Part shown: positions 6,525 to 53,166 of the stretch, piece after piece
Layout: the number at the start of each line of letters is the position of its first letter
Position numbering within the stretch: the stretch's first letter is position 1
Source of the DNA: Actinomycetota bacterium
Lineage (GTDB): Bacteria; Actinomycetota; Thermoleophilia; Gaiellales; Gaiellaceae
NCBI GenBank assembly: GCA_005888435.1
Contig: VAXO01000021.1
Coordinates: 1 to 53,229, forward strand
Direction: 5' to 3'
Length of the DNA: 53,229 bases
The notes under the pieces: model-generated
Told to the model about the DNA's origin: nothing
Database searches by the model: none
The model's input: the letters and a program-made list of their open reading frames with translations, nothing else
Made by a program: the position numbers and the translations under genes

Positions 6525-6616
6525 GGGGTCTGACCCCCGTGGGGGTCTGACCCCAACCTTTGGCAAGAGTGACTCGCGCGAACTGCTGGGGTCAGACCCC
6601 TTCGGGGTCAGACCCC
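6525..6616. repeat. Four copies of GGGGTCAGACCCC/GGGGTCTGACCCC arranged as inverted pairs (BIME-like)
   Basis: Copies at 6525-6537, 6542-6554 (GGGGTCTGACCCC) and 6588-6600, 6604-6616 (GGGGTCAGACCCC); tail-to-tail junction. Confidence 0.9.
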
Positions 6617-7245
6617 TAGACGGCGCGGGCGATTCGGAGCTTCGCGAGCTCGCGGTCGCGCTCCTCGAGGATCTCTTCGAGGCGGGCGATCTTCATCCGG
6701 AGCGTCTCGGTCGTCGTGACCATCTCGATGAACGCGCGCTGGCGCTCCTTCAGCAGCGCTTCGATACTGAGTAGCTTCTCGTCGGAGCTCATGAGGGCCG
6801 GCGGCTCCGGCTTCGGCGCGGGCGTCAGGTGCAGCAGCCGCGTCTCGGGCTGCGGCGCAGACGTAGGCGTGTCGAGGTTCGCGACCTGCTCGGCAACCTC
6901 GCGGGCGAGCTGCCGCTCCAGGTCGGGCACGGGCGGCGGCGGAAGCAGGTCGGGCACAGGCGGGAGGTTCGCGACTCGCTCGGCGAGCTCGCGCACCATT
7001 TTGACCGGGTCGAGCGCGGCCTCCGGCTCGGGCTCAGGTTTCGCAACCGCTGACGAGCCCTGGATGTCGAGCACCTGCTCGGCGATCGCGCGCGCGAGCG
7101 CGAGCCACGACGTCCGGCCCTGCTCGATCAGGATCTCGCCCAGGCGCCGGCCCGAGCGCTCCTGCTCTGCGAGCGCGGCTTCGAGGTCGATCTCGGAGAT
7201 TTCCCCTTTTTCGACCAGGATTTGGCCAATCGGACGCCGCCGCAT
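6616..7245 (-). CDS. MshEN / GspE N-terminal-like domain protein with Pro-rich linker and C-terminal coiled coil
   Basis: PIGQILVEKGEISEIDLEAALAEQERSGRRLGEILIEQGRTSWLALARAIAEQ; C-terminal heptad-rich region; no ATPase domain. Confidence 0.75.
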   Translation of the reverse strand: MRRRPIGQILVEKGEISEIDLEAALAEQERSGRRLGEILIEQGRTSWLALARAIAEQVLDIQGSSAVAKPEPEPEAALDPVKMVRELAERVANLPPVPDLLPPPPVPDLERQLAREVAEQVANLDTPTSAPQPETRLLHLTPAPKPEPPALMSSDEKLLSIEALLKERQRAFIEMVTTTETLRMKIARLEEILEERDRELAKLRIARAV

Positions 7246-7263
7246 GGCCTCTTTTATCGGCAG

Positions 7264-7914
7264 CTAGGCGCTCAGACTGAACGGCGGATATTCGTCCGTC
7301 ACGAGCACGAACGCGTACGCGATGACGCGCGTCCACCAGCGAAAGACGCCTTCGACGAAGTCGAAGAGGCCGCGGGGGTAGCGGCCCGTGAAGAGAATCG
7401 CGAACCAGGCGATCACGACGCAGACGACGGCGGCGATCGTGAGGAACAAGAGGACGATGAAGTGCGGGATCGCCAGGAGCCACTTCACGAGCGGCAGCCA
7501 GCGCGTCAACCCTTCCCGTGCATCCGGATACGGGAAGTCGAGCCGCACCGACTGTTCCTCGTCGGTCGACGGGTAGGTGTCGTCCATGAGGGCGAGGTAG
7601 ACGCCGACCCGGGCCGAGAACCGCATCAGCTGCTGGTTCCAGTCGAACCACCAGCGCGGGTACTTCTGACGAAAGAGGATCATCAGCAGCGGCGCGAAGA
7701 CGAGGGTGCCGCCCGCCCCTGCGGCGAACGTCCACGAGTAATGACCGGCGTGCGAGGTGTACGAATTCCCGCCGTCGACGGCGCTGAGCACGATCACGAT
7801 CGGGATGGCGGCGAAGATCCGGAAGAACGTCGTGGCGCGGTTCAGGTCGCGATCCGGATACGCGACCGAGAACTGGACCGGGTAGCCGCTGGCAGGCGTT
7901 GGCGCTTCGATCAT
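7264..7914 (-). CDS. DUF4389-family membrane protein
   Basis: YPVQFSVAYPDRDLNRATTFFRIFAAIPI...PRGLFDFVEGVFRWWTRVIAYAFVLVTDEYPPFSL. Confidence 0.8.
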   Translation of the reverse strand: MIEAPTPASGYPVQFSVAYPDRDLNRATTFFRIFAAIPIVIVLSAVDGGNSYTSHAGHYSWTFAAGAGGTLVFAPLLMILFRQKYPRWWFDWNQQLMRFSARVGVYLALMDDTYPSTDEEQSVRLDFPYPDAREGLTRWLPLVKWLLAIPHFIVLLFLTIAAVVCVVIAWFAILFTGRYPRGLFDFVEGVFRWWTRVIAYAFVLVTDEYPPFSLSA

Positions 7915-7972
7915 CGCGCCATTCTTACGCCTCCGGCCGCAACCGCAAAATCGCCGGCGCCGTGGCCGTCCG

Positions 7973-9001
7973 TCATGTCGCGAAGTCTCGCAAGTGGGCG
8001 AGCTCCAGAAGGGCTCGCGCGGCGCGAGCCGCGACGAGCTCTTCCCGCGCCCGTATGACAGCCACGCGCACGGCAGAGGTTTTCGTCGACACGTCGGCGT
8101 CAGGCGTTGGATTGCTGTTCCGCTCGGGATCGAGATCGACGCCGAGGAAACCGAGCCGGGAACACACGTCGGCGCGCACGCGCGAGGAGTGCTCGCCGAT
8201 GCCGGCGGTGAAGACGAGCGCGTCGAGGCCGTCGAGCGCGACGGCCATCGCGGCCACTGCCCCGGCGACTCTGTAGGCGAACACGTCCAGCGCGAGCCTC
8301 GCCTCGACGGCATCCGACCGCTCGAGCTCCGCGACGTCACCCGAACGGCCGGACAGCCCGAGCAGCCCACTGCGATGCTCGATCGCATCGTCGAGTTCGC
8401 CAAGCTCGACCCCGCGTCGGAGCAGATAGAGGATCGCGCCGGGGTCGACGCTGCCGGGACGCGTCGCCATCGGCACGCCCTCGAGCGGTGTGAACCCCAT
8501 CGTCGTGTCGATCGAGCGCCCGTCGCGAACTGCAGTGACGGAGCAGCCGCCGCCCAGGTGGCAGACGACGAGCCGCTTCACCCCAAGGCGCTCGCTCGCC
8601 CACTGCACGGAGAGCCCGTGGAAACCGTAGCGGCGGATATCGCGGCGCCATTCCGCAGGAAGCGCGTACGTTGCCGCGACGTCCGGAATCGTCGCGTGGA
8701 ACGCCGTGTCGAACACGGCGACGTGAGGAATGTCAGGCAGCGCTCGCCGCGCCGCGGCGATCGCTTCGACCGCCGGCCGGTTGTGGAGCGGCGCAAGCTC
8801 CACCAGTTGCTCGAGCCGAGCCTGAAGCGAATCGTCGATGAGAGTCGGCTCGCGTAGCTCGCCCCCGTGAACAACGCGATGCGCAACGGCCTCGACACCG
8901 CCGGGAATCGAGTCGAGCGACTCGACGGCGCGGCTTTCCTCGCCGTCGACAATGTGGAGCTTCAGGCTCGTCGAGCCCGCGTTGACAACGAGGACCGTCA
9001 G
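7973..9001 (-). CDS. ackA: Acetate kinase
   Basis: [19 protein letters not shown]... (manual extension upstream of supplied ORF), [57 protein letters not shown]; likely CTG start at 9001 overlapping the xfp stop, so start uncertain. Confidence 0.9.
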
Positions 9002-10206
9002 CCGGGCCAGGTCCAGTCGCGAATCTCCGGCGGATCCTCGCCGTGCTCGCGCCCGTACGCCCGCGCCCAGAGGCGGCTGTCGATCATGTCCTGGCGGAGA
9101 TGGTCGGCCGTGCCGGCGAGGTGCGGCAGGCGGTCGATGACGTCGATCACCAGATGGAACCGGTCGAGGTCATTGAGCATGACCATGTCGAACGGCGTCG
9201 TGGTCGTCCCCTCTTCCTTGTAGCCGCGGACGTGGAGGTTGCCGTGGTTCGTGCGCCGGTACGTCAGGCGATGGATCAGCCACGGGTAGCCGTGGTAGGC
9301 GAACACGACCGGGCGATCGACGGTGAAGAGCGAGTCGAACTCCTTGTCGGAGAGACCGTGAGGATGCTGCGTGTCGGGCTGCATGCGCATCAGGTCGACG
9401 ACGTTCACGACGCGTAGCCTCAGGTCGGGCAGCCGCGCACGCAGAATCGCGGCAGCCGCGAGAGTCTCGAGGGTCGGCACGTCGCCGCAGCAGCCCAGCA
9501 CGACGTCGGGCTCTGCGTCCTCGTCGTTCGAAGCCCACTCCCAGATGCCAATGCCGCGCGTGCAATGCGCGATCGCGTCGGGCATCGACAGGTACTGCAG
9601 CGCGGGCTGTTTGCCGGCGACGATCACGTTGACGTAGTCGCGGCTGCGGAGACAGTGGTCGGCGACGGAGAGCAGCGTGTTCGCGTCTGGCGGCAGATAC
9701 ACGCGGATGATCTCCGCCTTCTTGTTGACGACGTGGTCGATGAAGCCGGGGTCCTGATGCGAGAACCCGTTGTGGTCCTGCCGCCACACGTGTGAGCTGA
9801 GGAGGTAGTTCAGCGACGCGATGGGCTGTCGCCACGGAATCGCACGCGTCACCTTCAGCCACTTCGCATGCTGGTTGAACATCGAGCCGATGATGTGGAC
9901 GAAGGCCTCGTAGCAGTCGAAGAGGCCGTGCCGGCCGGTGAGCAGGTAGCCCTCGAGCCAGCCCTGGCAGAGATGCTCCGACAGCACCTCCATGACACGG
10001 CCGTCGGGTGCGAGTGCCTCGTCGGTCGGCTCCATCTCGGCGTCCCACGCGCGCGCCGTCACTTCGAACACGTCGCCCAGCCGGTTCGACGCCGTCTCGT
10101 CCGGGCCGAACAGGCGGAAGTTGTCCGGGTTCCGGGAGATCACGTCGCGCAGAAACGTCCCGAACACACGCGTCGACTCCGCCGTGTCGACGCCGGGATG
10201 CGTCAA
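8998..10206 (-). CDS. xfp: Phosphoketolase, C-terminal part (XFP middle + XFP_C)
   Basis: [35 protein letters not shown]...[25 protein letters not shown]...[21 protein letters not shown]; possible TTG start overlapping upstream TGA. Confidence 0.85.
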
Positions 10207-11351
10207 GTCAGCGCCAGGTCGCGGAGGAGCACACCGCCGTTTGCCTGGGGGAGCGCGCTCATGCGCCTGTCCCCCTCGGGGGCGAGCTCGGCGAGCTCCG
10301 GGATCAGGCGCCCACTTTCGTCGAACAGCTCTTCGGGACCGTAGCTGCGCATCCAGTCTTCGAGGAGTCGAAGATGATCCGGGTTCGCCCGTACGTCGGT
10401 CACCGGCACCTGATGGGATCGCCACGTCCCCTCGACGGGAAGGCCGTCCACCTCTGCCGGGCCAGTCCACCCCTTCGGAGAGCGCAGGACGATCATCGGC
10501 CACGTCGGGCGCTCACCAACGCCGTTTGCGCGCGCGCGATGCTGGATCTCGGCGATGCGGTCGAGTGCACGGTCGAGCACTGCGGCGAAGCGGCGGTGCG
10601 CGTCGAGGTGGTCGTCCGACGCCTCGATCGTGATGAAGAGCGGCTCGTGTCCGTAGCCGCGCATCAGCGCCGCGAGCTCGTCCTCCGGGATGCGGGCCAG
10701 GACCGTCGGGTTGGCGATCTTGTAGCCGTTGAGGTGGAGGATCGGCAGCACGGCGCCGTCGCTCTGCGCATTGAGGAACTTGTTCGCATGCCAGCTCGTC
10801 GCGAGCGGCCCTGTCTCGGCCTCGCCGTCCCCGACGACGCACGCGACGAGCAGCTCGGGGTTGTCGAACGCAGCGCCGTACGCGTGCGCGAGCGAGTAGC
10901 CGAGCTCACCGCCCTCGTTGATCGACCCGGGTGTCTCCGGCGCGACGTGGCTCGGGATCCCGCCGGGGAACGAGAACTGACGGAAGAGCTCGCGCAGCCC
11001 TTCCTCGTCCTCCGTGATGTGCGGATACACCTCGCTGTAGGTCCCGTCGAGATACGCATTCGCGACAAGCCCGGGGCCTCCGTGCCCGGGGCCGGTGACA
11101 TAGAGCACGTTGAGCGCGCGCTGCCTGATCGCACGGTTGAGGTGCGCGTAGATGAGATTCAGTCCCGGCGTCGTGCCGAAATGGCCGAGCAGACGCGGTT
11201 TCACCTGCTCCGCCATGAGCGGTTCTCGGAGCAGCGGGTTGTCGAGCAGGTAGATCTGGCCGACCGACAGGTAATTCGCAGCGCGCCAGTAGGCATCGAG
11301 CCGCTCGGCCTCGGTGGCGCCGAGCGTCTCACTCTGCAGCGCTTCGGTCAT
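10203..11351 (-). CDS. xfp: Phosphoketolase, N-terminal part (XFP_N, ThDP binding)
   Basis: [22 protein letters not shown]...[26 protein letters not shown]...[37 protein letters not shown]; stops at LLRDLALT*. Confidence 0.88.
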
Positions 11352-11430
11352 GCGACCCGAACGCTATGCCTTCCGTTCACCCTCGGCGTCACCTCGTGCG
11401 GGTCAGTCCGCACGACGACGCGCTCGCCGC

Positions 11431-12393
11431 TCAGCGCCTGCGAAAGATCCGGCGGCCGCCCTCTTCGACGACCTCGCCGTCCGCGTCGTCGCCGACTTCC
11501 TCGGCCTCGGCGGTCGCCGGAGCGTCGAAGCTTTGCTCCCACGGATCGTCCGCCTCGGGCGGGAGGACGCGGACGTGCCGCGGCGCGTCGGCGGGCTGCT
11601 CGGCAGGCTGCTCGTCGTCGTCAGAGCTGCGGCGCCACCAGCGCTTCTTGCCCTCGGATTGCTGCTCTTCTTCCTCCGCCGCCGCCGGCGGCAGCTCCGG
11701 CTCGGGCTCGTCCTCGGACTCGGGCTCCGGCTCGGGCTCTGCTTCGCCCGCCGCTTCGTCGTCGCGCGGCACTGCGCCGATGATCGTCATCGCGTCGGAG
11801 GGCTCCTGCGCCTCCTCGAATGCAGTCCACCCCAGCGCGTCGTGCTCCTCCGTGTCCTCGGAGCGCTGGCCCTCGACAACCGGATGCACAGGCGCGGCCG
11901 CCGCGGAGTGCGCAAAGGTCAGCTCCTCACGACCGGCAGCCCATTCGATCGCGCACACGATCAGCAGCGCGCCTGCCATGGCGAGCAGGATCGTCCACCA
12001 CGACAGGCTCGCGAGTCCGACCGCGACCGCGACGGCGATCAGGAACGCCACCTCGCCGGCGACGCGCCACACGACGGGCGAGACGCCTTCACGCGATCCG
12101 CGCGACCCGTAGCCGTATGCCGGCGGCGAGCCCGGCCAGGTCTGCTGCGTCCATCCGGCCGAGCGCAGCGCGCGCAGGTCGGAGCGCAGCGCCGCGGCGT
12201 GGCGGTGGAACGAGTCGACCGCCTCGAGCGTCCGCAGCGCCGCGTCGAGCTGCGCGGCATGGCGGTAAAAAGCGTCGAAGGCAGCGCGGACGCTCTCCTG
12301 CTCGTAGCCCTGCTCGGCGAGCGGGAGGTCCTCGGCCCGCGGCAGCGGCTCGCGCGAGGGCGTCTGCGGACTCGGCCAGGCCTCGTTTTCCAT
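11431..12393 (-). CDS. Membrane-anchored protein with acidic Pro/Glu-rich C-terminal tail
   Basis: Two hydrophobic segments (VAFLIAVAVAVGLASLSWWTILLAMAGALLIVCAIEW), EPEPEPESEDEPEPELPP tail. Confidence 0.65.
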   Translation of the reverse strand: MENEAWPSPQTPSREPLPRAEDLPLAEQGYEQESVRAAFDAFYRHAAQLDAALRTLEAVDSFHRHAAALRSDLRALRSAGWTQQTWPGSPPAYGYGSRGSREGVSPVVWRVAGEVAFLIAVAVAVGLASLSWWTILLAMAGALLIVCAIEWAAGREELTFAHSAAAAPVHPVVEGQRSEDTEEHDALGWTAFEEAQEPSDAMTIIGAVPRDDEAAGEAEPEPEPESEDEPEPELPPAAAEEEEQQSEGKKRWWRRSSDDDEQPAEQPADAPRHVRVLPPEADDPWEQSFDAPATAEAEEVGDDADGEVVEEGGRRIFRRR

Positions 12394-12417
12394 CGTTGAA
12401 TTATGCGTGGAGATCGG

Positions 12418-13188
12418 TCAGCCCGCAGCTTCGGCGCGCCAGAGGCCCCGGATGGCCCAGATCGCGAAGCCGCCGAGGAGGGCGAAGAGGATGCCGAAGG
12501 CGAGCAACGTCTTGTCGGGCGAGCCCGAGATCAGCCCGCGGCCCTCCTCCAGCAACGGCGTGATCGGGTTGACCCGCGCGACTCCGTGCAGCCACCCCTG
12601 CAGTAGCCCGAGCGGGACGTACACGGGGGCAAAGAAGAGCAGGATGAAGACCGGCATCTGGATGACCGGGAAGGCTTGCTGCGTTCGCAGCCGCATCGCG
12701 ACGCCTGCCGACCAGAGCGTGCCGACGATGCTGAGCAGGAAGCCGAGGGTGTACAGCGCGAACAGGTCGACGCCGCCGCCGCCGATCTTCATCTGCGCGG
12801 CGAACGCGACGCCCGTCACCACCACAATCACCGTAATCCACCGGACCAGGCCGGCAATCGCGTAGCCGAGCACGATGCCGACCCGGTTCGGAGCCGCGAG
12901 CATCAAGCGGCGCATGAAGCCCGACTCCCAGTCGCGTGCGATGCCGAAACCGGTGAACACACCGGAGAACGCGGCCGACTGCAGCAGCACGAACACGAAC
13001 TGGAACGCGGTGTAGCCGAGCGGGAAGTCGAAGCCCGGCACGTCGCGAATGCGTGACAGGCCGCCGACGAACGCCGTGAAGAAGAACAGCGGGAAGAGCA
13101 GCGACGGCAGGAGGAACGACGGGTTCGTGAAGAAGATGTGCGCCTGCCGCCAGGCGACGCCCTTCGCGACGTTGTAGATCTCTCTCAC
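12418..13188 (-). CDS. ABC-2 type transporter permease
   Basis: Six hydrophobic segments, FFTAFVGGLSRI...GIARDWESGFMRRLMLAAPNR. Confidence 0.85.
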   Translation of the reverse strand: MREIYNVAKGVAWRQAHIFFTNPSFLLPSLLFPLFFFTAFVGGLSRIRDVPGFDFPLGYTAFQFVFVLLQSAAFSGVFTGFGIARDWESGFMRRLMLAAPNRVGIVLGYAIAGLVRWITVIVVVTGVAFAAQMKIGGGGVDLFALYTLGFLLSIVGTLWSAGVAMRLRTQQAFPVIQMPVFILLFFAPVYVPLGLLQGWLHGVARVNPITPLLEEGRGLISGSPDKTLLAFGILFALLGGFAIWAIRGLWRAEAAG

Positions 13189-13964
13189 GACCGCGCCATC
13201 CGCTGGATCAGCGCATGTGTCGCGAGCACGAAGCCGACGATCGACATCCCGATCGCGACCGCGAAGCCGATCAGGATCGGCTCCCAGTGCCAGTCGTAGA
13301 TGACGAGCGCGCGCACCGCCTCGATCAGGTACGAGACCGGATTGATCGTCGCAACCCAGCGGAACCAGTCGGTCTCGATCAGGTTCCGCGGGATGTTCAT
13401 CGACGACAGGAACAGGAACACGAAGAAGACGGGGAACAGCCCCTGCACCGCCTCCGTCGATCCCGTTCGCAGCGCCGCCCAGCAGCCGAACGACGCGAAG
13501 GCGAGCGCGATCACCGCCTCGAGCACGAGCAGCAGCAGCGCGCCGCCGACACCGGTCTCGAGATGCACTCCGAACGCGAGCCCCACGGCGAGATAGAACA
13601 CCGCCTGCACGAGCGCGATCGTGAGCAACCCCCCGAGCTGGCCGAGCAGGAGCACGATCCCGCGCACCGGCGTCAGCGCGAGCCGGTTGAGGAACCCCGT
13701 CTGGATGTCGCGCGCGAACTCGACGTTCGCATTCACGGTCGCGAGCAAGGCACCCTGGATGAACGGCACTGCGATCGCGAAGGCGACGATCGAATCGGTC
13801 GGGAACCCCGGCAGCCGAGTCTCCGCCTTCAGCCCGCCCGAGTTCACCGCGAAAAGCAGCATCGGGAAGATCAGCGGGAAGACGATGTTGGCCGGCTGGC
13901 GCGCGGTGCGCACGACTGCGCGCCGGCCGAGCGTCGCAGCCTGCAGGGCGGCGGTCTGCGTCAA
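13185..13964 (-). CDS. ABC-2 type transporter permease
   Basis: ARQPANIVFPLIFPMLLFAVNSGGL...FARDIQTGFLNRLALTPVRG...; TTG start overlaps ATPase stop (TTGA). Confidence 0.85.
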   Translation of the reverse strand: MTQTAALQAATLGRRAVVRTARQPANIVFPLIFPMLLFAVNSGGLKAETRLPGFPTDSIVAFAIAVPFIQGALLATVNANVEFARDIQTGFLNRLALTPVRGIVLLLGQLGGLLTIALVQAVFYLAVGLAFGVHLETGVGGALLLLVLEAVIALAFASFGCWAALRTGSTEAVQGLFPVFFVFLFLSSMNIPRNLIETDWFRWVATINPVSYLIEAVRALVIYDWHWEPILIGFAVAIGMSIVGFVLATHALIQRMARS

Positions 13965-14962: not shown

Positions 14963-14971
14963 CCCCCGAGG

Positions 14972-15757: not shown

Positions 15758-15775
15758 CTAGCCATGATCGCCATG

Positions 15776-15805
15776 AAAAGGCCGCCCGGCAAGTGCCGGG
15801 CGGCC
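15776..15805 (-). terminator. Rho-independent terminator (minus strand)
   Basis: Perfect 11-bp stem GGCCGCCCGGC-AAGT-GCCGGGCGGCC followed by TTTT on the minus strand, downstream of 15836..15913. Confidence 0.85.
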
Positions 15806-15835
15806 CATCATTCGAGTCGTTCAGGTCCTAGTGGG

Positions 15836-22979: not shown

Positions 22980-23699
22980 ATGGCCAAAGTCCTGATCGTC
23001 GAAGACGACCGTGTCATCGCGGAGGGGATGGCGCGTCATCTCGCCAGCGCAGGGTTCGACCCCGTTGTCGTGGGCAGGGGCGAGCAGGGGCTGGCGCGTC
23101 TGCGTTTCGAACGCCCGGATGTCGTAGTGCTCGACCTGATGCTTCCCGAGCGCGACGGCTGGAGCGTGATCGAGGAGGCCCGCTCAGAGGGGATCGCCAC
23201 GCCGATCGTCGTCGTCTCGGCCCGCGGCACCGAGCACGACCGCGTGCATGCGCTCGAAATCGGTGCCGACGACTACCTGGTCAAGCCGTTCTCGATGAAC
23301 GAGCTCGTCGCCCGGGTGCGGGCTGCATCGCGGCGGGCCCTCCGCCGGGACGACGCTCCACGCGGGGAGCCGATCGACATCGAGGAACTGCGGATCGATC
23401 CTCGGGAGGTTCAGGCTTTCGTCGACGGCGAGAGTGCTGAGCTGACGCCTACGGAGTTCCGGCTGCTCTACCAGCTAGCGCTCGAACGGGGCCGCGTGGT
23501 CACCCGCGACGAGCTGCTGCAGAAGATCTGGGGCCGCCGCGAGGCCCATCGCGACCGCACGGTGGACGTCTTCGTCCGCCGCCTGCGCGACAAGATCGAC
23601 CGCCGGGCCACGCGGCACACCTTCATCCAGACCCGTTACGGGGTCGGCTACCGGCTCGAACCGGTCACGAAGTCGGACGCCGAAGCGGACCTGCCCTAA
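22980..23699 (+). CDS. OmpR/PhoB-family response regulator (RegX3/PhoB-like)
   Basis: KVLIVEDDRVIAEGMARHL..VVVLDLMLPERDGWSVIEE..DDYLVKPFSMNELVARVRA; C-terminal winged helix ELTPTEFRLLYQLA...DRTVDVFVRRLRDKI. Confidence 0.93.
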   Translation: MAKVLIVEDDRVIAEGMARHLASAGFDPVVVGRGEQGLARLRFERPDVVVLDLMLPERDGWSVIEEARSEGIATPIVVVSARGTEHDRVHALEIGADDYLVKPFSMNELVARVRAASRRALRRDDAPRGEPIDIEELRIDPREVQAFVDGESAELTPTEFRLLYQLALERGRVVTRDELLQKIWGRREAHRDRTVDVFVRRLRDKIDRRATRHTFIQTRYGVGYRLEPVTKSDAEADLP

Positions 23700-23705
23700 A
23701 AGGCT

Positions 23706-23789
23706 GGGGTCAGACCCTTGCCGTTTCGGACGGGGGTCAGCGTGTCCGGGTCAGAGGCGGCACGGCTGTAAACGCTGGGGTCAGACCCC
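23706..23789. repeat. Palindromic GGGGTCAGACCC(C) repeat, two copies in a partial direct repeat
   Basis: Copies at 23706-23718 (last base T) and 23777-23789, each followed by TTGCCGTTTCGGACGGGG / CTGCCGTTTCGGACGGGG. Confidence 0.88.
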
Positions 23790-24068
23790 TGCCGTTTCGG
23801 ACGGGGTCAGTGACGCAACCGTTCGCCGGCCGTCGACCTCGTAGACGACGTCGACCGTGTCGTGCTTGCGATAGGTGCCGGCGATCCCGAGCAGCATCGA
23901 GAGCCAGCGGATCGGACCGAGCCGTCCCTCCTGGGCAAGGACGCGGCGGAACACGAGCTCGTCCCCGATCCGGTCGAAGTCGCGGCCTAGCTGCTGCGGG
24001 ACCCCGTTCAAGTACACCTCGTAACGATCTCCGACCACGGCCGGTAGCCGCACGCGTGAGCCCGCCAT
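23781..24068 (-). CDS. Conserved-looking small protein of unknown function
   Basis: MAGSRVRLPAVVGDRYEVYLNGVPQQLGRDFDRIGDELVFRRVLAQEGRLGPIRWLSMLLGIAGTYRKHDTVDVVYEVDGRRTVASLT...; C-terminus runs into repeat. Confidence 0.65.
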   Translation of the reverse strand: MAGSRVRLPAVVGDRYEVYLNGVPQQLGRDFDRIGDELVFRRVLAQEGRLGPIRWLSMLLGIAGTYRKHDTVDVVYEVDGRRTVASLTPSETAGV

Positions 24069-30914: not shown

Positions 30915-32867
30915 ATGCGCGTCCTCGCACTTGCGGCCATCTGTTTCACCCTGCTCGGCGTCGCTTCGGCAGCCGACGCAGCCACCCCTGTCAAAGGCGC
31001 GGCCCCCGGGCACCTGCACGGGTTCCTGCTGCGCGCCGACGAGCCCGTCGCGGACGCGTTCCCGCGGACCCCGTCCTTCGCGTGGGATCCCGTCCCGGGC
31101 GCGGTGCGCTACCAGTTCCAGCTCTCGACGAGCTCGAGCTTCCGCGACAGCGGGCTGCTCTACACCGCCTCGAGCCTGACGACGCCGGTCACTGCGCCGG
31201 AGCTCACGCTGCCGTGGATCACCGGCAACCCGCATGCGCTGTTCGCGCGCGTGCGCGCGATCAAGCGCTCGTCGTCGACGCCGTGGAGTGCCGCGTTCGG
31301 CTTCGACATGGAGCCGGCCGCCGCGCCGAAGCCGCTTCCGAGCGAGCCCGGGCTCTTGCGCTGGACACCGATCGAGGGCGCCGACATGTACCAGATCTGG
31401 CTCATCGACATCAATAACCCGACCGCGAAGATGGAGATGTCGCTGACGAACGTGCTGGACGAGCGCGAGTTCTACACATTCCATCGCTCGGCGAACTGGA
31501 CGGGCACGATCCGCTGGCGCATTCGCGCGTTGCGGATGGACAACGACCCGTCCGCGCGCCAGAACCACCTGCCGGCCGTGGCATACGGACCCTGGAGCCC
31601 GGTCTACACGTCGACGAACCCGGCGTATTCGACGGGGCCGATCACACTCGGCCACACGGTCTCCGACGTGATCGCAAATGGCGATGGCTCGTCGGCCGCG
31701 CACCGCCTGATGCCGGGCTTCACGTTCAGCGGCGACACCGCGATCGACGACACGAAGGCGGAGCTCTTCCGCATCTACGTCTTCACCGACCGCCAGTGCC
31801 TCAACCGTGTGTACACGAGCGCGATCGTCGGCGGCCCCGCCTACGCACCGCGCCCATACGGACCGCTGGCGCTGCCGAGGAGCCCGACCGCGCTGCCGGC
31901 CGCGCGCTCCAACTACCTTCGTGACGGCAGCGAGCCGGACAGCTTCATGTTCGACGGGCTTCCGGCCAAGTCGACGGAGTCCGAGCCTGCGGCCACGCCG
32001 ACGACCGCGGTCCCGACGGATTCCGATTCCACGTCGACGACGTCCACGCCCGCCGGCCCTGCGCAGCTGAAGTTCAGCGGCGACCTCGGCGCGCCGGTCG
32101 ACCTGTGGGACACGGAATGGCCCAGCGGCGGCTACTACTGGACGGTCGTCGCTGTCGGCGCTGTCTCGCCCGGGGCGCTCACCACCGCGACCGCGAGCCT
32201 CAGCGCAGTGGGCAGCGTTTCGGCGTCCGCAGTCGACGGGTCAGGCTTCTCGACCGGCGACACCGTGCTGATCGGCAATTCGGGCAACCAGGAGAACGCG
32301 ACGATCGTCAACGTCAGCGGCTCCACCATCGGCTTTGCGTCACCGCTCAAGTTCGCTCACGGCCCGGGTGAGCCGATCCTGCGCACGGGCGGGAACCTCC
32401 AGTACGAGGACCTCGAGCTGCCGCAGGACGTCTGCGCAGCGCCGTACAACCGCGTCGCACGGTTCGGCAAGAACAGCGAACCGTCGCTGACCGCGGCCGG
32501 CGAGCTGTTCGCGTCGGGCCTTTCGCCGAGCGGCAGGCTCACCGCCGGCAAGAGCAGTCAGGCGTTCTACGGCTATCCGCTCGTCGCGTGGACGCCCGCG
32601 CTCGGCGCGTCGGCGTACGAGGTGCAGTGGAGCAAGACGCGGTATCCGTTCACGCCGCAGGCGAACCCGTCGAACCAGGGCGCCCTCGGCACCATGACGC
32701 TCGGCACGTCCGTCGTGCTGCCGCTCCCCGCCGGGACCTGGTGGTACCGCGTGCGCGGCTTCAACCTCAACCTCCCCACCGGCGCGCAGCAGATGTCCTG
32801 GTCGAAGCCCTCGAGGATCGTCGTCGCTAAGCCGAAGTTCAAAGTCGTCGGCGGCGGCCGAACCTAA
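30915..32867 (+). CDS. Secreted multi-domain surface protein (Fn3-like segments)
   Basis: Signal peptide; repeated FAWDPVPGAVRYQFQLS / LRWTPIEGADMYQIWL / VAWTPALGASAYEVQWS modules. Confidence 0.75.
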   Translation: MRVLALAAICFTLLGVASAADAATPVKGAAPGHLHGFLLRADEPVADAFPRTPSFAWDPVPGAVRYQFQLSTSSSFRDSGLLYTASSLTTPVTAPELTLPWITGNPHALFARVRAIKRSSSTPWSAAFGFDMEPAAAPKPLPSEPGLLRWTPIEGADMYQIWLIDINNPTAKMEMSLTNVLDEREFYTFHRSANWTGTIRWRIRALRMDNDPSARQNHLPAVAYGPWSPVYTSTNPAYSTGPITLGHTVSDVIANGDGSSAAHRLMPGFTFSGDTAIDDTKAELFRIYVFTDRQCLNRVYTSAIVGGPAYAPRPYGPLALPRSPTALPAARSNYLRDGSEPDSFMFDGLPAKSTESEPAATPTTAVPTDSDSTSTTSTPAGPAQLKFSGDLGAPVDLWDTEWPSGGYYWTVVAVGAVSPGALTTATASLSAVGSVSASAVDGSGFSTGDTVLIGNSGNQENATIVNVSGSTIGFASPLKFAHGPGEPILRTGGNLQYEDLELPQDVCAAPYNRVARFGKNSEPSLTAAGELFASGLSPSGRLTAGKSSQAFYGYPLVAWTPALGASAYEVQWSKTRYPFTPQANPSNQGALGTMTLGTSVVLPLPAGTWWYRVRGFNLNLPTGAQQMSWSKPSRIVVAKPKFKVVGGGRT

Positions 32868-32872
32868 AGGCT

Positions 32873-32885
32873 GGGGTCAGACCCC
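32873..32885. repeat. GGGGTCAGACCCC palindromic repeat
   Basis: TAAAGGCTGGGGTCAGACCCC between convergent genes; overlaps stop of 32877..33713. Confidence 0.9.
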
Positions 32886-43183: not shown

Positions 43184-43206
43184 CGAAGTCGTCGTACGCG
43201 GCGCCG

Positions 43207-44553: not shown

Positions 44554-44573
44554 GAGCCGTACCCTTACAGCCC

Positions 44574-46457: not shown

Positions 46458-46810
46458 CCGAGCGAACGCCGACGCCGACCCCTCCGGAGGTCGGCCGCTG
46501 GACCGGGATGGGCGAGGCGCTCGGCCGCTTCGCCCTCCAGACGCTCGTGGCAATCGTGGTGGTGGGCGTGATCGGCGCACTCGTCGCTTGGGGGACCGGT
46601 CACGACATCGCCGGCGGAATGGCGGGCGCGTACTACATCGTCGGCGCGGGCCTCTTCGTAGTCGGGATGTTCCCGACCGGCGGCTACTCGACGTTCCGCG
46701 GAACGATCACGCGGCGAAAGCCGACGGGCGCGCGGCAGGAGGCGCACTTCCTGATGGGGATCCTGTTGATCGCGGTCGGCGTGCTGTTCGACCTGACGCG
46801 CCCGTTCTAA
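46454..46810 (+). CDS. Small multi-pass membrane protein
   Basis: Hydrophobic 118-aa ORF; ATGA overlap with abcF. Confidence 0.75.
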   Translation: MTERTPTPTPPEVGRWTGMGEALGRFALQTLVAIVVVGVIGALVAWGTGHDIAGGMAGAYYIVGAGLFVVGMFPTGGYSTFRGTITRRKPTGARQEAHFLMGILLIAVGVLFDLTRPF

Positions 46811-46822
46811 GAGCGAAAGGCT

Positions 46823-46851
46823 GGGGTCAGACCCCTTTGGGGTCAGACCCC
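46823..46851. repeat. Two direct copies of GGGGTCAGACCCC separated by TTT
   Basis: Copies at 46823-46835 and 46839-46851 after GAAAGGCT; overlaps the C-terminus of 46827..47408. Confidence 0.92.
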
Positions 46852-47408
46852 AGTGTCGCTATCAGCGCTTCGGCGACCACCTTCAGCGGCCGCCCCGAGA
46901 TCTGGCTCGCTTTGCGGAGACGCGCGAACGCGTCTTGTTCGGACAGACCCTCCTTCGCCATCAGGAGACCCTTGGCGCGCTCGATCGCCTTGCGCGCGGC
47001 AAGCGCCTCTGCGAGCGACTCCGCCTCTTCGCGCAGCGCCGTCAGCTCCTCGTGCCGGGCCCGGGCCGTGCGAATAGCGGGCAGCAAGTCCTGCTCGCGG
47101 AAGGGCTTGACGAGGTAGCCGAAGACGCCGGCTTCGGCTGCGCGCTGAACCAGCTCGTCCTGGCCGTAGGCGGTGAGCATCACGATCGGGATCGGACGCT
47201 CGTCGAGGATCCGCCTGGCGGCCTCGATGCCGTCGAGCTTCGGCATCTTGACGTCGAGCACGGCCACGTCCGGCTGCTCCGATCTCGCGAGGGCGACGGC
47301 CTCCTCCCCGTCGCGGGCCTCCGCACAGACCTCGAAGCCGGCCCGCTCCAGCAGAGCCCTCAGATCGAGCCGGATGATCGTCTCGTCTTCGGCAACCAGG
47401 ATCCTCAT
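46827..47408 (-). CDS. ANTAR-domain response regulator
   Basis: MRILVAEDETIIRLDLRALLERAGF...VLDVKMPKLDGIEAA...AYLVKPF-like receiver; ALAARKAIERAKGLLMAKEGLSEQDAFARLRKASQ ANTAR. Confidence 0.93.
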   Translation of the reverse strand: MRILVAEDETIIRLDLRALLERAGFEVCAEARDGEEAVALARSEQPDVAVLDVKMPKLDGIEAARRILDERPIPIVMLTAYGQDELVQRAAEAGVFGYLVKPFREQDLLPAIRTARARHEELTALREEAESLAEALAARKAIERAKGLLMAKEGLSEQDAFARLRKASQISGRPLKVVAEALIATLGSDPKGV

Positions 47409-47491
47409 CTGTGGGTGAGTTTTGTCGAAAACGCTCGGCCGAGGGATGGCGGCGGCTCGGACGGCGGGCGATGGTGGAGGTGCGGCCACCG

Positions 47492-47890
47492 ATGTCTGAA
47501 TCGGATTTCACCCCCAAACCCCAGTCCCTCGTCTTCCGAGTAGAGATCTCGGCGGAACAGGCGAACGCGCTTGCCCCCCTCCTGAGCGGGGTGGCGCTGC
47601 CGGCGGTACCCGCTCCGGTCTCGGAGGAAGCGGTCGACGCGCGGGTCCTCGAGCTGAGGCAGCGCGAGAGCGAGCTGGAGCTGCGCGAGGCGGAGTTCGA
47701 CGCGGACGTGGAGCTGCGCGAGGACCGGATCGAGCGCTGGCGCACGGAGCTGGAAGAGCTCGAGCAGACGCTGGACCGGCGCGAGCGCGACCTCGTGAGC
47801 TACGTCGATCAGCTGCAGGGAGCCATGTCCGGCTCCGGCAACGACGCCTGGTGGCAGCGGCCCGCCGGCGGCGACGGCGGCGTTTACTAA
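47492..47890 (+). CDS. Small acidic coiled-coil protein of unknown function
   Basis: MSESDFTPKPQSLVFRVEISAEQANALAPLL...RQRESELELREAEFDADVELREDRIERWRTELEELEQTLDRRERDLVSYVDQLQ; GTGGAGGTG SD. Confidence 0.7.
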   Translation: MSESDFTPKPQSLVFRVEISAEQANALAPLLSGVALPAVPAPVSEEAVDARVLELRQRESELELREAEFDADVELREDRIERWRTELEELEQTLDRRERDLVSYVDQLQGAMSGSGNDAWWQRPAGGDGGVY

Positions 47891-47892
47891 CT

Positions 47893-47919
47893 CGGCGAAG
47901 CTGCGCTTCGCCGGTTTTT
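47893..47919 (+). terminator. Rho-independent terminator
   Basis: CGGCGAAGC-TGC-GCTTCGCCG followed by GTTTTT, 3 nt after stop of 47492..47890. Confidence 0.88.
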
Positions 47920-48017
47920 GAGGTACTGCGCGTCGCGCTGGCTTACGCGACGGCTTCTTTCTGGTCGTCACTCATTTGGGGGATGCCTGCGTTCGTGCTA
48001 CGTGGTGCAATCGCGGC

Positions 48018-48215
48018 GTGGACTTGGTGAGTCCCGAGCTTGTGCTCGTTTCGCCGCCCGAGATCGCGGCTGAGGCGCGGTTGCACGTGCTGGACCCGCT
48101 GCCTGGGTCGTATGTGCCGCGGGTGACCTTGTCGCGCGGCGGGATCGCGACGTTTTACGCCTGCTGCATCGCCGGAACGCTCGGGCCGCTCGTGCTGGCT
48201 TCCCTCGCGCGCTAG
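48018..48215 (+). CDS. Small conserved-looking protein of unknown function
   Basis: VDLVSPELVLVSPPEIAAEARLHVLDPLPGSYVPRVTLSRGGIATFYACCIAGTLGPLVLASLAR*; start uncertain. Confidence 0.5.
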   Translation: MDLVSPELVLVSPPEIAAEARLHVLDPLPGSYVPRVTLSRGGIATFYACCIAGTLGPLVLASLAR

Positions 48216-49993
48216 GAGTCCTCCTGGATCGCTGCGGCGGCGTTGACGAGCGCGAGGTGGCTGAGCGCCTGCGGGAAGTTGCCGAGCTGCTCGTGGGTGT
48301 GAGGGTCGAGCTCTTCGGCATAGAGACCGACATCGTTCGTGAGGTCGACCATCGCGTTCATCGTCTGGCGCGCCTCGTCGAGCTGGCCGGCGCGGGCGAG
48401 TGCTTCCACGAGCCAGAAAGAGCACGCGACGAAGGCCCCTTCGACCTCCTGCTGGCCGCTGTAGCGGTAGAGCAAGGGTCCGCCGCCGGCGAGCTCGGTG
48501 CGAACGGCTTCGATCGTTCCCCCGATCTCGGCACTCTTCGGGTCGAGCAGGCTCGTCCGCACGACGCGCAGGGTGGCGGCGTCCAGCTTCTCGGTCCCGG
48601 GGTGCATGAGGAGACTGCGCCGCTCCGGCGACCAGCACTCCTCGAGGATGAACGCGCGCACCTGCTCGGCTTCGCGGCGCCAGGCCTCCGCGTGCTCCGC
48701 GGGCAACTGTCCGCCCTCGACGAGGCGCAGCGCCCGCTCGAAGCAGGTCCAGGCGGCCAGCTTTGAGCTCGTGTAGTGCTGGCGGTCGTCGAGCTCCCAT
48801 ATACCGGCGTCCCGCTTGCGCCACAGCTTGGCGAGATGGTCGACAAGTTCGCAGACTCGCTTCGCGGTTGCGTCGTCGAGGGCGTTCCCCTCGCGCACGT
48901 ACAGCTCCGCTGTCTCCAGCAGATCGCCGTAGGCGCCGAGTTGCAGCTGCTTCGCAGCCGCGTTTCCGGTCAGGACCGGCCGCGAGCCGCGAAAGCCGGC
49001 CAGCTCGAGCGTACGCTGACGACCCGTCATCGGTCGGCCATCGAGCCGGTAGCACGGCTTCAGCTTTGGATGCGTCTCGGCCGTCGCATGCAGCAGCCAG
49101 GCAAAGGAGGCGTGCACCTGCGCCCGCAGACCGAGGTTGATCAACGCGTCGACCGCAAAGGCACCATCGCGTACCCAGCCGTAGCGATAGTCGTAGTTGC
49201 GGTCACCGCCGATCCGTTCGGGCAGTGAGGTCGTGGCCGCAGCCGCGATCCCGCCGGTCGGAGCGTACGTGAGCAGCTTCAACACCAGCGCACTGCGCTC
49301 GACCGCCTCCCGCCACTCGCCTGCGTACGAACCCGAATCGAGCCAACGGCGCCAGAGATCAGCCGTCGTCTCCAGCCGCCGCTCCACGTCCTCACGCACC
49401 GGAAACACGAGCGGCTCCTCGTGCGCCGAGGTCAGCACCAACAATGCCCGCGTGCCGGAGCGGACCGTGAACCGCCCCGAAACCTCGCCGCTGCGGTGCA
49501 CCGGCTCGCCCGCATCCCAGCAATGGAGCGCGAGCTCGAACTCGCCGCCAAGTGCAACCCACGCGCCCCGCCGCTGCTCGAACCGCGTCTCCAGTTCACC
49601 CCAGCCGAACCGCGGCCGCAGCCGCCAACGCATCGGCACGTTGCCAGCGAGCCCCTCGACGCGGCGCACGAGCTCAACCCATGGCAGGAGCCCGAACTCG
49701 TGCAGCGCCAGCGCATCCGTAACCCGCACGCTGCCGGCAGCAGTACGGAACGTCGTCGTCAGAACGTTCGTCCGCGGGAGATAGGCGCGGGATGCCTCGA
49801 ATGCTTCCTCCGGGACGAGCTCGAAGCGGCCGCCCTCCTCCGAGTCGAGCAGCGCAAAGAAGACCGGCGCCGTGTCGAGACGCGGCAGCGCAAACCAATC
49901 GATCGAGCCATCACAGGCAACAAGCGCACACGCCCGACCGTCACCGACCGCGGCGTAGTCGCCGATCCCCGCATACCCCCCAGTTCTCAACAC
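48212..49993 (-). CDS. Glycoside hydrolase family 15 (glucoamylase/trehalase type)
   Basis: GYAGIGDYAAVGDGRACALVACDGSIDWFALPRLDT, RNYDYRYGWVRDGAFAVDALINLG, GIWELDDRQHYTSSKLAAWTCFERAL. Confidence 0.93.
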   Translation of the reverse strand: MLRTGGYAGIGDYAAVGDGRACALVACDGSIDWFALPRLDTAPVFFALLDSEEGGRFELVPEEAFEASRAYLPRTNVLTTTFRTAAGSVRVTDALALHEFGLLPWVELVRRVEGLAGNVPMRWRLRPRFGWGELETRFEQRRGAWVALGGEFELALHCWDAGEPVHRSGEVSGRFTVRSGTRALLVLTSAHEEPLVFPVREDVERRLETTADLWRRWLDSGSYAGEWREAVERSALVLKLLTYAPTGGIAAAATTSLPERIGGDRNYDYRYGWVRDGAFAVDALINLGLRAQVHASFAWLLHATAETHPKLKPCYRLDGRPMTGRQRTLELAGFRGSRPVLTGNAAAKQLQLGAYGDLLETAELYVREGNALDDATAKRVCELVDHLAKLWRKRDAGIWELDDRQHYTSSKLAAWTCFERALRLVEGGQLPAEHAEAWRREAEQVRAFILEECWSPERRSLLMHPGTEKLDAATLRVVRTSLLDPKSAEIGGTIEAVRTELAGGGPLLYRYSGQQEVEGAFVACSFWLVEALARAGQLDEARQTMNAMVDLTNDVGLYAEELDPHTHEQLGNFPQALSHLALVNAAAAIQEDS

Positions 49994-50004
49994 CAGCGCC
50001 CTGC

Positions 50005-50388
50005 CTAGTCCGGCTGGTGGCAGACGGCCTCGATGTTGTTGCCGTCGGGATCGAGGACGTAGCCGCCGTAGTAGTCGGGGTGATACACCGCCCGCACGCC
50101 GGGTGCGCCGTTGTCGGTCCCGCCTGCGTCGACAGCTGCGGCGTGAAAGGCGTCCACTTGCGCCCGGTTCTCAGCTCTCAGCGCAATGTGAAGCCGACCC
50201 CGCACAGGCTCCCCATAGGCCTCGATGAAGAACGACGGTCTCTCTCCATCATCCTTGCCGAACCCGGCGGCCGCTTCCGAGAACTCCATGAGCAGCGTCA
50301 TCCCGAGCGGCGCCAGCGCTTTCTCGTAGAACGCCTTGCTTCGTTCGTAATCAGCAACGGCGAACCCGACGTGATCGAGCGTAGTCAT
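50005..50388 (-). CDS. VOC/glyoxalase family protein
   Basis: LDHVGFAVADYERSKAFYEKALAPLGM...YYGGYVLDPDGNNIEAVCHQ. Confidence 0.93.
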   Translation of the reverse strand: MTTLDHVGFAVADYERSKAFYEKALAPLGMTLLMEFSEAAAGFGKDDGERPSFFIEAYGEPVRGRLHIALRAENRAQVDAFHAAAVDAGGTDNGAPGVRAVYHPDYYGGYVLDPDGNNIEAVCHQPD

Positions 50389-50435
50389 CCACTCTCCCTT
50401 CGGCGGCGGTGGGATGGTCTCGTCAGTCCCTCCTA

Positions 50436-51851
50436 CTAGGCCGGGAACGACACTTCCGCGCGCGTTCCCGCGTCGCTGCGGAGATCGAGCCGCCCTTGCA
50501 GCTCGTCGCTGACGAGCGCCCGGACGATCGAGAGGCCCGTTCCCGACGCGTCCGTGCCGATGCCCCTCCCGTCATCCGTGATTGCCAGCAGGACCTCGCC
50601 GTTGCGCTGCGCGAGCTCGATGTCCACGGAGTTGCCGCCGTGCTCGAGCGCGTTCTGCAGCAGCTCGCTGAAGACGAGCGCGAGCGCGGTCGCGCGGTTT
50701 CCCGCCAGGGAGACCTCTTCGAGCTCCGCGTGCACGCGCTTCCCGGCGGCGAGGCCCTGCACGAGCATCGCGCGCAGTCGGTCGATCAGGTCGCGGAGAT
50801 CGACGACCTCGTCCCGCTGCTCCGTCAGCACCTCGTGCACTGCGGCGATGGCGAGGATCCGGTTGACGGAGTCCTCGAGCGCCTTGCGCGGGTCACTGTG
50901 CGCGGAGCGCGCCTGCAGCCGCAGCAGCGATGCAACCGTCTGGAGGTTGTTCTTCACGCGATGATGGATCTCTTGCGCGAGCACGCCGCGCATCACCGCT
51001 CGCCCGTGCTCGAGCGCAACGGCCGCGTGGTGCGCGATCGACGTGAGCAGCGCGCGCTCGTCGGCCGTGAACGGCGTGTCCCGATCGCAGACGAGCTCGC
51101 CGATCTGGCGGCGCTTCCAGCGCAGCGGCAGTCGCACCGCATGCTTGCCGGGCCGGCCTTCGGGCCAGGCGATGTCCCCGTCCTGGAGCACCAGCGCAGC
51201 GCCCGTCGCCGCGACGGCCTCCATCGTCGTCTTGACGATCGCCTCGAGCGATTCCTCGAGGTACAGCGACTCGGACACCGCCTCCGAGATCTTCGCGAGC
51301 GCCTCGAGCTCGGCGACACGGCTTTGCGCCTGCGCGTACAGCTGCGCGTGCACGATCGTCTGAGCTACCTGAGCCGCGATGGCGACGACGAGCTCCATCT
51401 CGTCGTGGGTGAACTCGCGCGGCGCGATCGTCCGGACGTTGAGGGCGCCGGCGAGCCGCTCGCGCGCGAAGATCGGCACGGCGAGGATCGACTCGTACTG
51501 GTCCTCGGGTAGGTTGGAAAAGAGCTTGAACCGCGGATCCAGGTGCGCCTGGGCCGCGATCATGATCGGCGCGCGCTCGGCGGCAGCGCTGCCCGTGATG
51601 CCCTCGCCCGCCCGCATCCGCGGCCGCTTCGTCATCTCCTCGACGTTCGTCCCGTGCGTAGCACGGAGGACGAGCTCGTCGCTGCGCTCGTCGTAGAGAT
51701 AGACGAAGCACGCATCGGCGTCGAGGACGTCGGCGACCTTCCGCGCGACGAGTGCCAGCACCTCCTCCAGGTCGAGCGTCGAGTTGACCGCGGCAATCGT
51801 CTCGGTGAGGAGACGGAGATGGCGCTCTCGTACGTCCACGTGTACGTCCAC
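50436..51851 (-). CDS. GAF-domain sensor histidine kinase (HisKA_2/HWE-like)
   Basis: GAF-like N-terminus (LDLEEVLALVARKVADVLDADACFVYLYDE); LAQEIHHRVKNNLQTVASLLRLQAR phosphoacceptor; ELLQNALEHGG...ITDDGRGIGTDASGTGLSIVRALV. Confidence 0.9.
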   Translation of the reverse strand: MDVHVDVRERHLRLLTETIAAVNSTLDLEEVLALVARKVADVLDADACFVYLYDERSDELVLRATHGTNVEEMTKRPRMRAGEGITGSAAAERAPIMIAAQAHLDPRFKLFSNLPEDQYESILAVPIFARERLAGALNVRTIAPREFTHDEMELVVAIAAQVAQTIVHAQLYAQAQSRVAELEALAKISEAVSESLYLEESLEAIVKTTMEAVAATGAALVLQDGDIAWPEGRPGKHAVRLPLRWKRRQIGELVCDRDTPFTADERALLTSIAHHAAVALEHGRAVMRGVLAQEIHHRVKNNLQTVASLLRLQARSAHSDPRKALEDSVNRILAIAAVHEVLTEQRDEVVDLRDLIDRLRAMLVQGLAAGKRVHAELEEVSLAGNRATALALVFSELLQNALEHGGNSVDIELAQRNGEVLLAITDDGRGIGTDASGTGLSIVRALVSDELQGRLDLRSDAGTRAEVSFPA

Positions 51852-51872
51852 TTGGATCCCTAGGCTAGCGCT

Positions 51873-52349
51873 GTGGATCGCTACCACTGGCTCCTGGTCT
51901 TCCACATGACCGGCGTGTTCTTGATCCTCGGCGGCGCCGCTTTCGGCGGGATCCTGAACGTCGCCGCCCTCCGGCGGGAACGCCCGAGCGAGATCGTCGT
52001 GCTGTTCCGGTTCGTGCGGATCGCCGTGAGGGCGATTTCGCTCGGCATGGTCCTGACACTCGTGTTCGGGCTGTGGCTGGTCGGCGACCTCGACTTCGTC
52101 AAGTGGAGCAACACGTGGGTGATCCTGGCGCTCATCCTCTGGGTCGTCGCGAACGCGCTCGGCGGAGCCGGCGGCCGCCGTGAGAAGGAGACGCGAAAGC
52201 TCGCCGAGCGACTCGCCGCGGAGGGCGACGGACCGAGCGCGGAGCTGCGCGCCCGCATGCGCGATCGCCTCACGCTCGCGCTCAGCTGGGGCAGCGGCAT
52301 CGTCGTGATCGCAATCCTTGCTCTGATGATCTGGAAGCCGGGCCACTGA
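51873..52349 (+). CDS. DUF2269-like membrane protein
   Basis: Multi-TM; LLVFHMTGVFLILGGAAFGGILNVAALRRE. Confidence 0.7.
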   Translation: MDRYHWLLVFHMTGVFLILGGAAFGGILNVAALRRERPSEIVVLFRFVRIAVRAISLGMVLTLVFGLWLVGDLDFVKWSNTWVILALILWVVANALGGAGGRREKETRKLAERLAAEGDGPSAELRARMRDRLTLALSWGSGIVVIAILALMIWKPGH

Positions 52350-52783
52350 TGCTCGCGATCCTGCGCCCGGACAGCTGGAACCTCGCGCTCTTCCTGCACG
52401 TGCTCGGGGCGACCGTGCTGACCGGTGCTACAGCTGCCGCGCTCGTGTGCGCGGTGAACGAGGCTCGCTGGCCGTGGCTTCGGCTCGTCGTCGCGCGCAC
52501 GCTGCTGCTCGCCGTCTTCCCGGCCTGGATCCTGATGCGCCTCGGCGGCGCCTGGGAAGACTCGAAGTCGCCGATCGGCGACAACTCGACGTGGCTCGGA
52601 ATCGGCTACCTCGTCGGCGACGCCGGCTTCGTGCTCCTGATCGTCGCGACGATCCTCGGCGCCGTGGCCGTCCGCCGACCACAGCGCACGTGGCCGATCC
52701 GCACCGTCGCCGTGATCACCGGCGTGTATTTCGTGGCTCTGTTGGTCGCCATGTTCGCGATGACGGGGAAGCCGGGCAGTTAA
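52349..52783 (+). CDS. Multi-pass membrane protein
   Basis: NLALFLHVLGATVLTGATAAALVCAVNEARW...; translationally overlapping with the preceding gene. Confidence 0.7.
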   Translation: MLAILRPDSWNLALFLHVLGATVLTGATAAALVCAVNEARWPWLRLVVARTLLLAVFPAWILMRLGGAWEDSKSPIGDNSTWLGIGYLVGDAGFVLLIVATILGAVAVRRPQRTWPIRTVAVITGVYFVALLVAMFAMTGKPGS

Positions 52784-52840
52784 CAGAACCCTTACTCCAA
52801 AGACGGGAATTTCCTTAGAGACGGGGAATAGGTTCTAAAC

Positions 52841-53095
52841 GTGTCGGCTCTGCCACTGAACCTGACTGCGACGACCGGGTTCCTCGTCGCCGACAACCGA
52901 GGACGCCTCGTCGGCAAGGTCGAGTGCCCGATGTACGGCACACTCCCGGACGTGCCCGACGCCCTGTCGGTGAAGAGCGGGTTCCTCTCGCGGCATCGCC
53001 GTCTCGTCCCGGCCGACACGATCGCCGAGGTAGACCCGGCAAGCCGCGTCGTCGGCCTCCGCGTCGCGCGCGAAGCGATCCGCCGCTTCCTTTAA
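52841..53095 (+). CDS. Small PRC-barrel-like protein
   Basis: TGFLVADNRGRLVGKVECPMYGTLPDVPDALSVKSGFLSRHRRLVPADTIAEVDPASRVVGLRVAREAIRRFL. Confidence 0.6.
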   Translation: MSALPLNLTATTGFLVADNRGRLVGKVECPMYGTLPDVPDALSVKSGFLSRHRRLVPADTIAEVDPASRVVGLRVAREAIRRFL

Positions 53096-53153
53096 GTCAC
53101 CACGAAAACGCACCGTCGAGAACGGGCGGCCGAGAGGCACGGCGTCAAAGGCT

Positions 53154-53166
53154 GGGGTCAGACCCC
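53154..53166. repeat. GGGGTCAGACCCC palindromic repeat
   Basis: TCAAAGGCTGGGGTCAGACCCC. Confidence 0.9.

Follow-up and report, generated by a model that had tools for sequence, protein, structure and literature searches.

In a 53,229-nucleotide stretch of a Gaiellaceae actinobacterium (hereafter the window, G000:C74:1-53229, from G000, a 2.45 Mb draft genome of 144 contigs), the 13-mer GGGGTCAGACCCC occurs repeatedly in and around the gaps between genes. We found that GGGGTCAGACCCC is the hairpin core of a unit resembling the repetitive extragenic palindromes (REPs), composed of the core and short outer arms and often doubled. The results obtained make it very probable that these units form a non-autonomous REP/REPIN-like family, most likely mobilised in trans by an HUH/Y1 REP-associated tyrosine transposase (RAYT) of the TIRYT branch (TnpA_Y1 subclass 2.1). 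Subclass 2.1, the second largest class of RAYTs (PMC6006769), was described as having no REP-like sequences near its genes (Quentin et al. 2018, PMC6006769). Here, it is linked to large dispersed repeat populations, and a known type of element is thereby widened to include a RAYT branch believed to have no such repeats.

Abundance and anatomy of the repeat

The 13-mer is palindromic except for its central base, where only an A or a T sets its orientation. G000 contained 97 exact copies while about 0.42 were expected from base composition, and a reversed control gave 0. The excess over chance on which an earlier interpretation, made from the letters of the window (the sequence-only reading), depended was thus confirmed genome-wide. 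The ten copies at five loci named by that reading were all found at their coordinates, nine of them exact and the one at 23706-23718 with one mismatch, and a scan of the window allowing up to 2 mismatches gave 20 strand-matches against 2.1 +/- 1.7 in shuffles. When the flanks of the 97 copies were profiled, an arm reading AAAGGCT or AACTGCT was found 5' of the core, often with the complementary AGCCTTT or AGCAGTT 3' of it. Many G000 copies were doubled about 16 bp apart, mostly sharing the centre base. The typical doublet, AAAGGCT-GGGGTC-A-GACCCC-TTC-GGGGTC-A-GACCCC-AGCAGTT, is predicted to form a single hairpin that contains an A.A mismatch (-17.8 kcal/mol, z -6.5), and the predicted DNA hairpins of the elements were stable, with z from -4.1 to -8.5. 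In the congener G004, the arms were the same as in G000, but the doublets were mostly A/T-centred. In G040, which belongs to another family, 13 inverted pairs were found at exactly 50 bp, with a predicted fold into one hairpin. This is the arrangement of a REPIN, in which two inverted units at a constant distance make up a single long hairpin. Having 97 exact copies and a hairpin fold, and lying between genes in 51 of its 65 clusters, the G000 repeat corresponds to the description of a REP as a palindromic repeat of 20-40 nt, high in copy number and mostly extragenic. A direct array of three cores with a 41 bp period was also observed at 6656-6750 of locus L139 (G000:C100; aaaggcaGGGGTCAGACCCCggcc...acacggccgc).

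The 13-mer was present in at least 5 copies in 27 of 61 close relatives versus 11 of 397 genomes of the phylum, and congeners carried from 0 to 108 copies, the latter in G004. Among the 103 family genomes searched to find its RAYT, the AAMKGCT-armed repeat occurred more than once only in G000 and G004. That this is an actinobacterial REP family, as the sequence-only reading had put forward, is plausible. WhiB, looked for as an actinobacterial marker, was absent from the G000 draft, which argues neither for nor against this. In the collection of papers searched, neither the literal 13-mer nor its 11-mer led to a relevant paper.

RAYT genes of the relatives and the branch they belong to

The association with RAYTs was seen in the relatives. 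Twenty of their 90 Y1_Tnp loci had the exact core in the flanks, on one or both sides of the gene and at near-constant spacing, mostly 88-112 bp from the domain start on the upstream side and 114-360 bp from the domain end on the downstream side. At further Y1_Tnp loci, a one-mismatch copy or a variant of the core was seen. At many flanked RAYTs, the core centres a longer palindrome, the arms of which differ from one RAYT to the next. The core variants found among RAYTs (GGGGTCAGACCCC, GGGGACAGTCCCC, GGTGTCAGACACC, GGGGCCAGGCCCC and AGGGTCAGACCCT) are compensatory; therefore, pairing is what is kept. Dispersed copies also matched the RAYTs of their own genome. In G040, the arms of the two core-flanked RAYTs differ, and of the 90 copies sampled, 72 carried one arm or the other, for backgrounds of 4.3% and 0.8% per site. 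With a threshold of at least 10 copies, which was set after the counts were seen, GGTGTCAGACACC was abundant in all seven genomes having a RAYT flanked by GGTGTCAGACACC (G026, G027, G035, G007, G008, G009 and G015) and in 0 of 54 others, the next highest count being 9 (p = 2e-9). Likewise, GGGGACAGTCCCC was present in 14-238 copies in the four genomes, out of four, with a GGGGACAGTCCCC-flanked RAYT; it reached 10 copies in 2 of 57 other genomes (28 and 12 copies), both of the same genus as one RAYT-flanked genome. Since core and arms differ from enzyme to enzyme, and do so by compensatory change, these relatives offer many natural enzyme/hairpin pairs for reading the recognition code.

The best match of the flanked proteins was NF047646 (REP_Tyr_transpos), four of the five tested falling slightly under its curated cut-off, and a PDB search matched them to the E. 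coli TnpA-REP 4ER8. Their HUH motif is mostly NHYH or NHFH and their Tyr motif YIVLNP or YLALNP (Y..LNP), which agrees with subclass 2.1 (NHVH/NH[YF]H; YIELNP or Y[IV]HLNP) at the level of motifs. A C-terminal helix-turn-helix (HTH) signal was detected in L049, L073, L077 and L078 and none in L054, while L044, L057 and L084 end soon past the core domain. Subclass 2.1 is given as Bertels's group 1 and is tentatively equated with the TIRYTs of PMC3733652 (PMC6006769), the inverted repeats of which have the common motif GGGGWSAS (Di Nocera et al. 2013, PMC3733652). For comparison, we used the 80 nearest RAYT relatives from other genomes, covering 14 named phyla, 67 of them with enough flank. The 13-mer was expected near these 80 outside RAYTs and was found at none of them. 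Inverted repeats, most of them led by GGGGTCAG, were detected at 46 of the 67 versus 0 in controls, and GGGGWSAS was located upstream of 44 of the 67 versus 6 in controls. The TIRYT/TIRtron organisation, a RAYT-like gene with GGGGWSAS inverted repeats, was therefore found both in the relatives and in other phyla. The half-motif GGGGTCAG is common to the RAYT branch, and its palindromic closure is the variant seen here, showing that a half-motif shared by many phyla can close into a palindrome and expand. The repeat fits a palindromic, expanded family of this branch. Among the outside relatives (L281-L360), which come from many phyla, inverted repeats of the form GGGGTCAGGTCTTGC... were near-identical across phyla, for example, in L292 from Myxococcota and L346 from Uhriibacteriota. 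This suggests wide horizontal spread or strong constraint.

Compared with known systems, the family resembles TIRtrons in that GGGGTCAG fits GGGGWSAS, inverted repeats lie by a RAYT-like gene and dispersed families include dimers. It differs in that the half-motif is closed to the palindrome GGGGTCAGACCCC, the arms are RAYT-specific and there are 97-261 copies per genome, TIR families being called moderately abundant (PMC3733652). With subclass 2.1, it shares the NH[YF]H and Y..LNP-type motifs and, in several members, a C-terminal HTH signal; however, REP-like hairpins here flank several of the genes and occur dispersed in the genomes as well, and several core-flanked members have no HTH. Like the canonical GTAG REPs, REPtrons and REPINs of E. 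coli, Pseudomonas and Stenotrophomonas, it has short hairpins, dimers, a 3'-side and convergent location, element-supplied stop codons, in-frame intragenic copies and RAYT-specific families. Contrary to them, it has no 5' GT[AG]G guide tetranucleotide, and the hairpin core is conserved, not the foot. The profile of the 97 copies gave AAMKGCT, with no GTAG or GTGG.

Several observations weigh against mobilisation by such a RAYT. The only Y1_Tnp gene of G000 is L031, on contig C96 (G000:C96:14085-17411), and no motif was found within 1.5 kb of it. The RAYT gene flanked by the motif that the sequence-only reading led us to look for was thus not found in the 89% complete G000 genome, and the tie between repeat and RAYT holds through the relatives, by flanking and by matching of arms and cores. 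L031 is truncated, has no C-terminal HTH and looks vertically inherited, with the HUH and Tyr motifs kept. No flanked RAYT was detected in G004 with its 108 copies, and no Y1_Tnp gene was found in four motif-rich relatives. The idea that core-flanked RAYTs form one clade was rejected. Finally, no transposition was observed. When all G000 and G004 repeat loci were inspected for other RAYT pieces, none was found besides L031. Both drafts are incomplete (89% for G000, 81% for G004), and a gene lying between repeats easily drops out of a draft assembly. The missing flanked RAYT may be explained in this way, but its loss or a different enzyme is possible.

The L031 clade includes genes from G001, G002, G004, G007, G008, G009 and G017, none of them flanked, and appears to be a RAYT core passed on by vertical descent and possibly domesticated. 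Truncated Y1_Tnp genes of this type (L031 together with L060, L063, L104, L105, L109, L112 and L066) were seen in eight genomes, seven from the genus and one from another, and several genes of the clade read straight on into the same downstream gene.

Position relative to genes and competing explanations

Junction statistics were obtained on 667 kb of G000 containing every exact copy, with gene calls from our own codon-model caller, so that the junction counts carry some error. The 65 clusters, among which neighbours are not certainly independent insertions, were distributed as 27 in convergent gaps, 23 in same-strand gaps, one in a divergent gap, nine inside genes and five at contig edges. 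The gaps available were 84 convergent, 431 same-strand and 92 divergent. Convergent gaps represent 17.5% of gap bases but contain 27 of the 51 intergenic clusters (p = 1e-8); the preference for convergent junctions noted from the window is therefore genome-wide. It was also observed in G004 (p = 3e-4) and G040 (p = 3e-6), and divergent gaps were depleted of copies in all three genomes. The three genomes thus display the pattern described for REPs, which are found in convergent and unidirectional gaps and rarely in divergent ones (PMC3733652). In the same-strand gaps of G000, 16 of 23 copies were closer to the stop of the upstream gene. The absence of same-strand and divergent copies reported by the sequence-only reading is true of the window only, and exclusivity to convergent junctions is false for the genome, given its 23 same-strand clusters, one divergent and nine intragenic. 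Tolerance of insertions away from promoters predicts such a bias, which alone is no proof of a tail-to-tail function.

The nine intragenic G000 clusters (L124, L126, L131, L134, L136, L142, L154, L156 and L172) are in frame. Their hosts include homologues of acetyl-CoA synthetase, biotin carboxylase, EPSP synthase, NuoG and PilM, and the copies add peptides such as GSDP, RGQTP and RGLTP. To compare sites between congeners, 44 G004 clusters had usable flanks, and detailed alignments to G000 were made for 15 junctions, the remaining clusters having no two-sided counterpart in the G000 sequence compared or being too diverged for alignment. About 11 of the 15 had the repeat in both genomes, one being degenerate in G000 and several having different doublets; same-site copies include those in the EPSP synthase, glycosyltransferase and biotin carboxylase genes. 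Four junctions were occupied in G004 only, including L246 (versus L126 near 3962). At the G004-only site L249 (versus L151 of G000 near 13066), the copy is inserted in frame within a gene for an iron-sulfur protein.

By analogy with the TnpA-REP enzymes studied so far, which cut folded single-strand REPs (PMC8266576), we infer that a RAYT would cut and join the folded single-strand repeat in trans. Copies would persist where insertion is least harmful, either 3' of stop codons, which would account for the convergent enrichment and for the scarcity of copies in divergent gaps, where promoters lie, or in frame in proteins. Many copies have a conserved CT at the hairpin foot. The REPs studied so far are cut at a CT dinucleotide (PMC8266576), and the foot CT may, as only a lead, mark the cut site. 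Distances to stop codons were also recurrent (repeat loci of G004 and G040, L181-L280). In G004, 13 of 39 scored stop-to-core distances were +11 nt, and 12 of these 13 stops were TAA or TAG though TGA is the commonest stop. In G040, 17 offsets were at +2 and eight at +10, and an offset of -9, with TGA within the core, was seen in all three genomes. The G040 arms themselves appear to supply the stop. An arm-supplied stop does not explain the +11 offset of G004, which could reflect a target preference. Nonetheless, we consider it unlikely that insertion is aimed at stop codons, the RAYT or guide pairing recognising a stop-containing target.

If the repeats were not mobile but kept by the host, as bidirectional terminators or mRNA 3'-end stabilisers selected at tail-to-tail ends, their strong bias to gene 3' ends, the stable predicted hairpins and the position of 16 of 23 same-strand copies nearer the upstream stop would be accounted for. 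However, same-strand gaps hold 23 of the 51 intergenic clusters, nine clusters are in frame in coding genes and 57 of the 84 convergent gaps in the examined G000 sequence have no copy. An intrinsic terminator is a GC-rich hairpin followed by a U tract, whereas of 130 element edges only 9 had TTTT within 12 nt, and some of these runs at least belong to the arm sequence itself. Moreover, copy number varies from 0 to 108 among congeners, and arms and core track RAYT genes, making this role for the family very improbable. Even less credible is that the copies are ends of autonomous IS200/IS605-type insertion sequences (IS), or miniature inverted-repeat elements (MITEs) moved by an ordinary IS200 TnpA. 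The enzyme does belong to the same HUH/Y1 superfamily and the elements flank the gene like IS ends, but the proteins match REP_Tyr_transpos with much higher scores than IS200, have the class 2 Y...NP motif instead of the IS200 Y...Q motif (PMC6006769), and are low-copy and divergent within genomes.

A more serious, still tentative, alternative is that the copies are relics, spread by a RAYT since lost and now static and decaying, with some perhaps co-opted. This is a variant of the preferred reading, from which it differs only in ongoing mobilisation, and our confidences in the two overlap. It agrees with G000 and G004 having no flanked RAYT, with the sole G000 RAYT being truncated and unflanked, and with about 11 of 44 testable G004 sites being common to G000, one of them degenerate. 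Against it, 97 copies are exact and the core is undecayed, G000 and G004 differ in dimer type and at many sites, and the incompleteness of both assemblies could by itself hide a repeat-flanked gene.

Copies of the window

The sequence-only reading had placed all five window loci between convergent genes. Gene calls make this firm at 6522/6616, 32867/32877 and 46810/46827. The convergence at 23699/23781 depends on a weak minus-strand open reading frame with no Pfam match and may be a same-strand gap, and the locus at 53154 lies past the last called gene near the window end, where it is not classifiable. The elements are as follows.

6525-6561, minus strand: REP dimer with cores 6525-6537 and 6542-6554, both exact sequence matches, and outer arm AAAGGTT (6555-6561, minus-strand reading), 2 bp 3' of the TAG stop of the plus-strand arylsulfotransferase-like gene 5041-6522 (gene calls, Pfam).

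6581-6616, plus strand: REP dimer with arm AACTGCT (6581-6587), core 6588-6600, loop TTC and core 6604-6616, its final base being common to the TAG stop (6618-6616) of the minus-strand gene 6616-7245.

23699-23718, plus strand: REP copy with arm AAAGGCT and core GGGGTCAGACCCT (one mismatch), directly 3' of the response-regulator gene 22980-23699 (Pfam).

23770-23796, plus strand: REP copy with the exact core 23777-23789 between imperfect arms AAACGCT and TGCCGTT.

32866-32885, plus strand: REP copy with arm AAAGGCT and core 32873-32885, overlapping the stops of both convergent genes (sequence, gene calls, stop offsets); the arm holds the final two bases of a TAA (32865-32867) and the core holds a minus-strand TGA (32879-32877).

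53147-53166, plus strand: REP copy with arm AAAGGCT and core 53154-53166, near the window end, junction type not callable.

46816-46851, plus strand: REP dimer with arm AAAGGCT, core 46823-46835, loop TTT and core 46839-46851; a minus-strand ANTAR response-regulator gene runs through the second core and ends at a TGA in the first (46829-46827).

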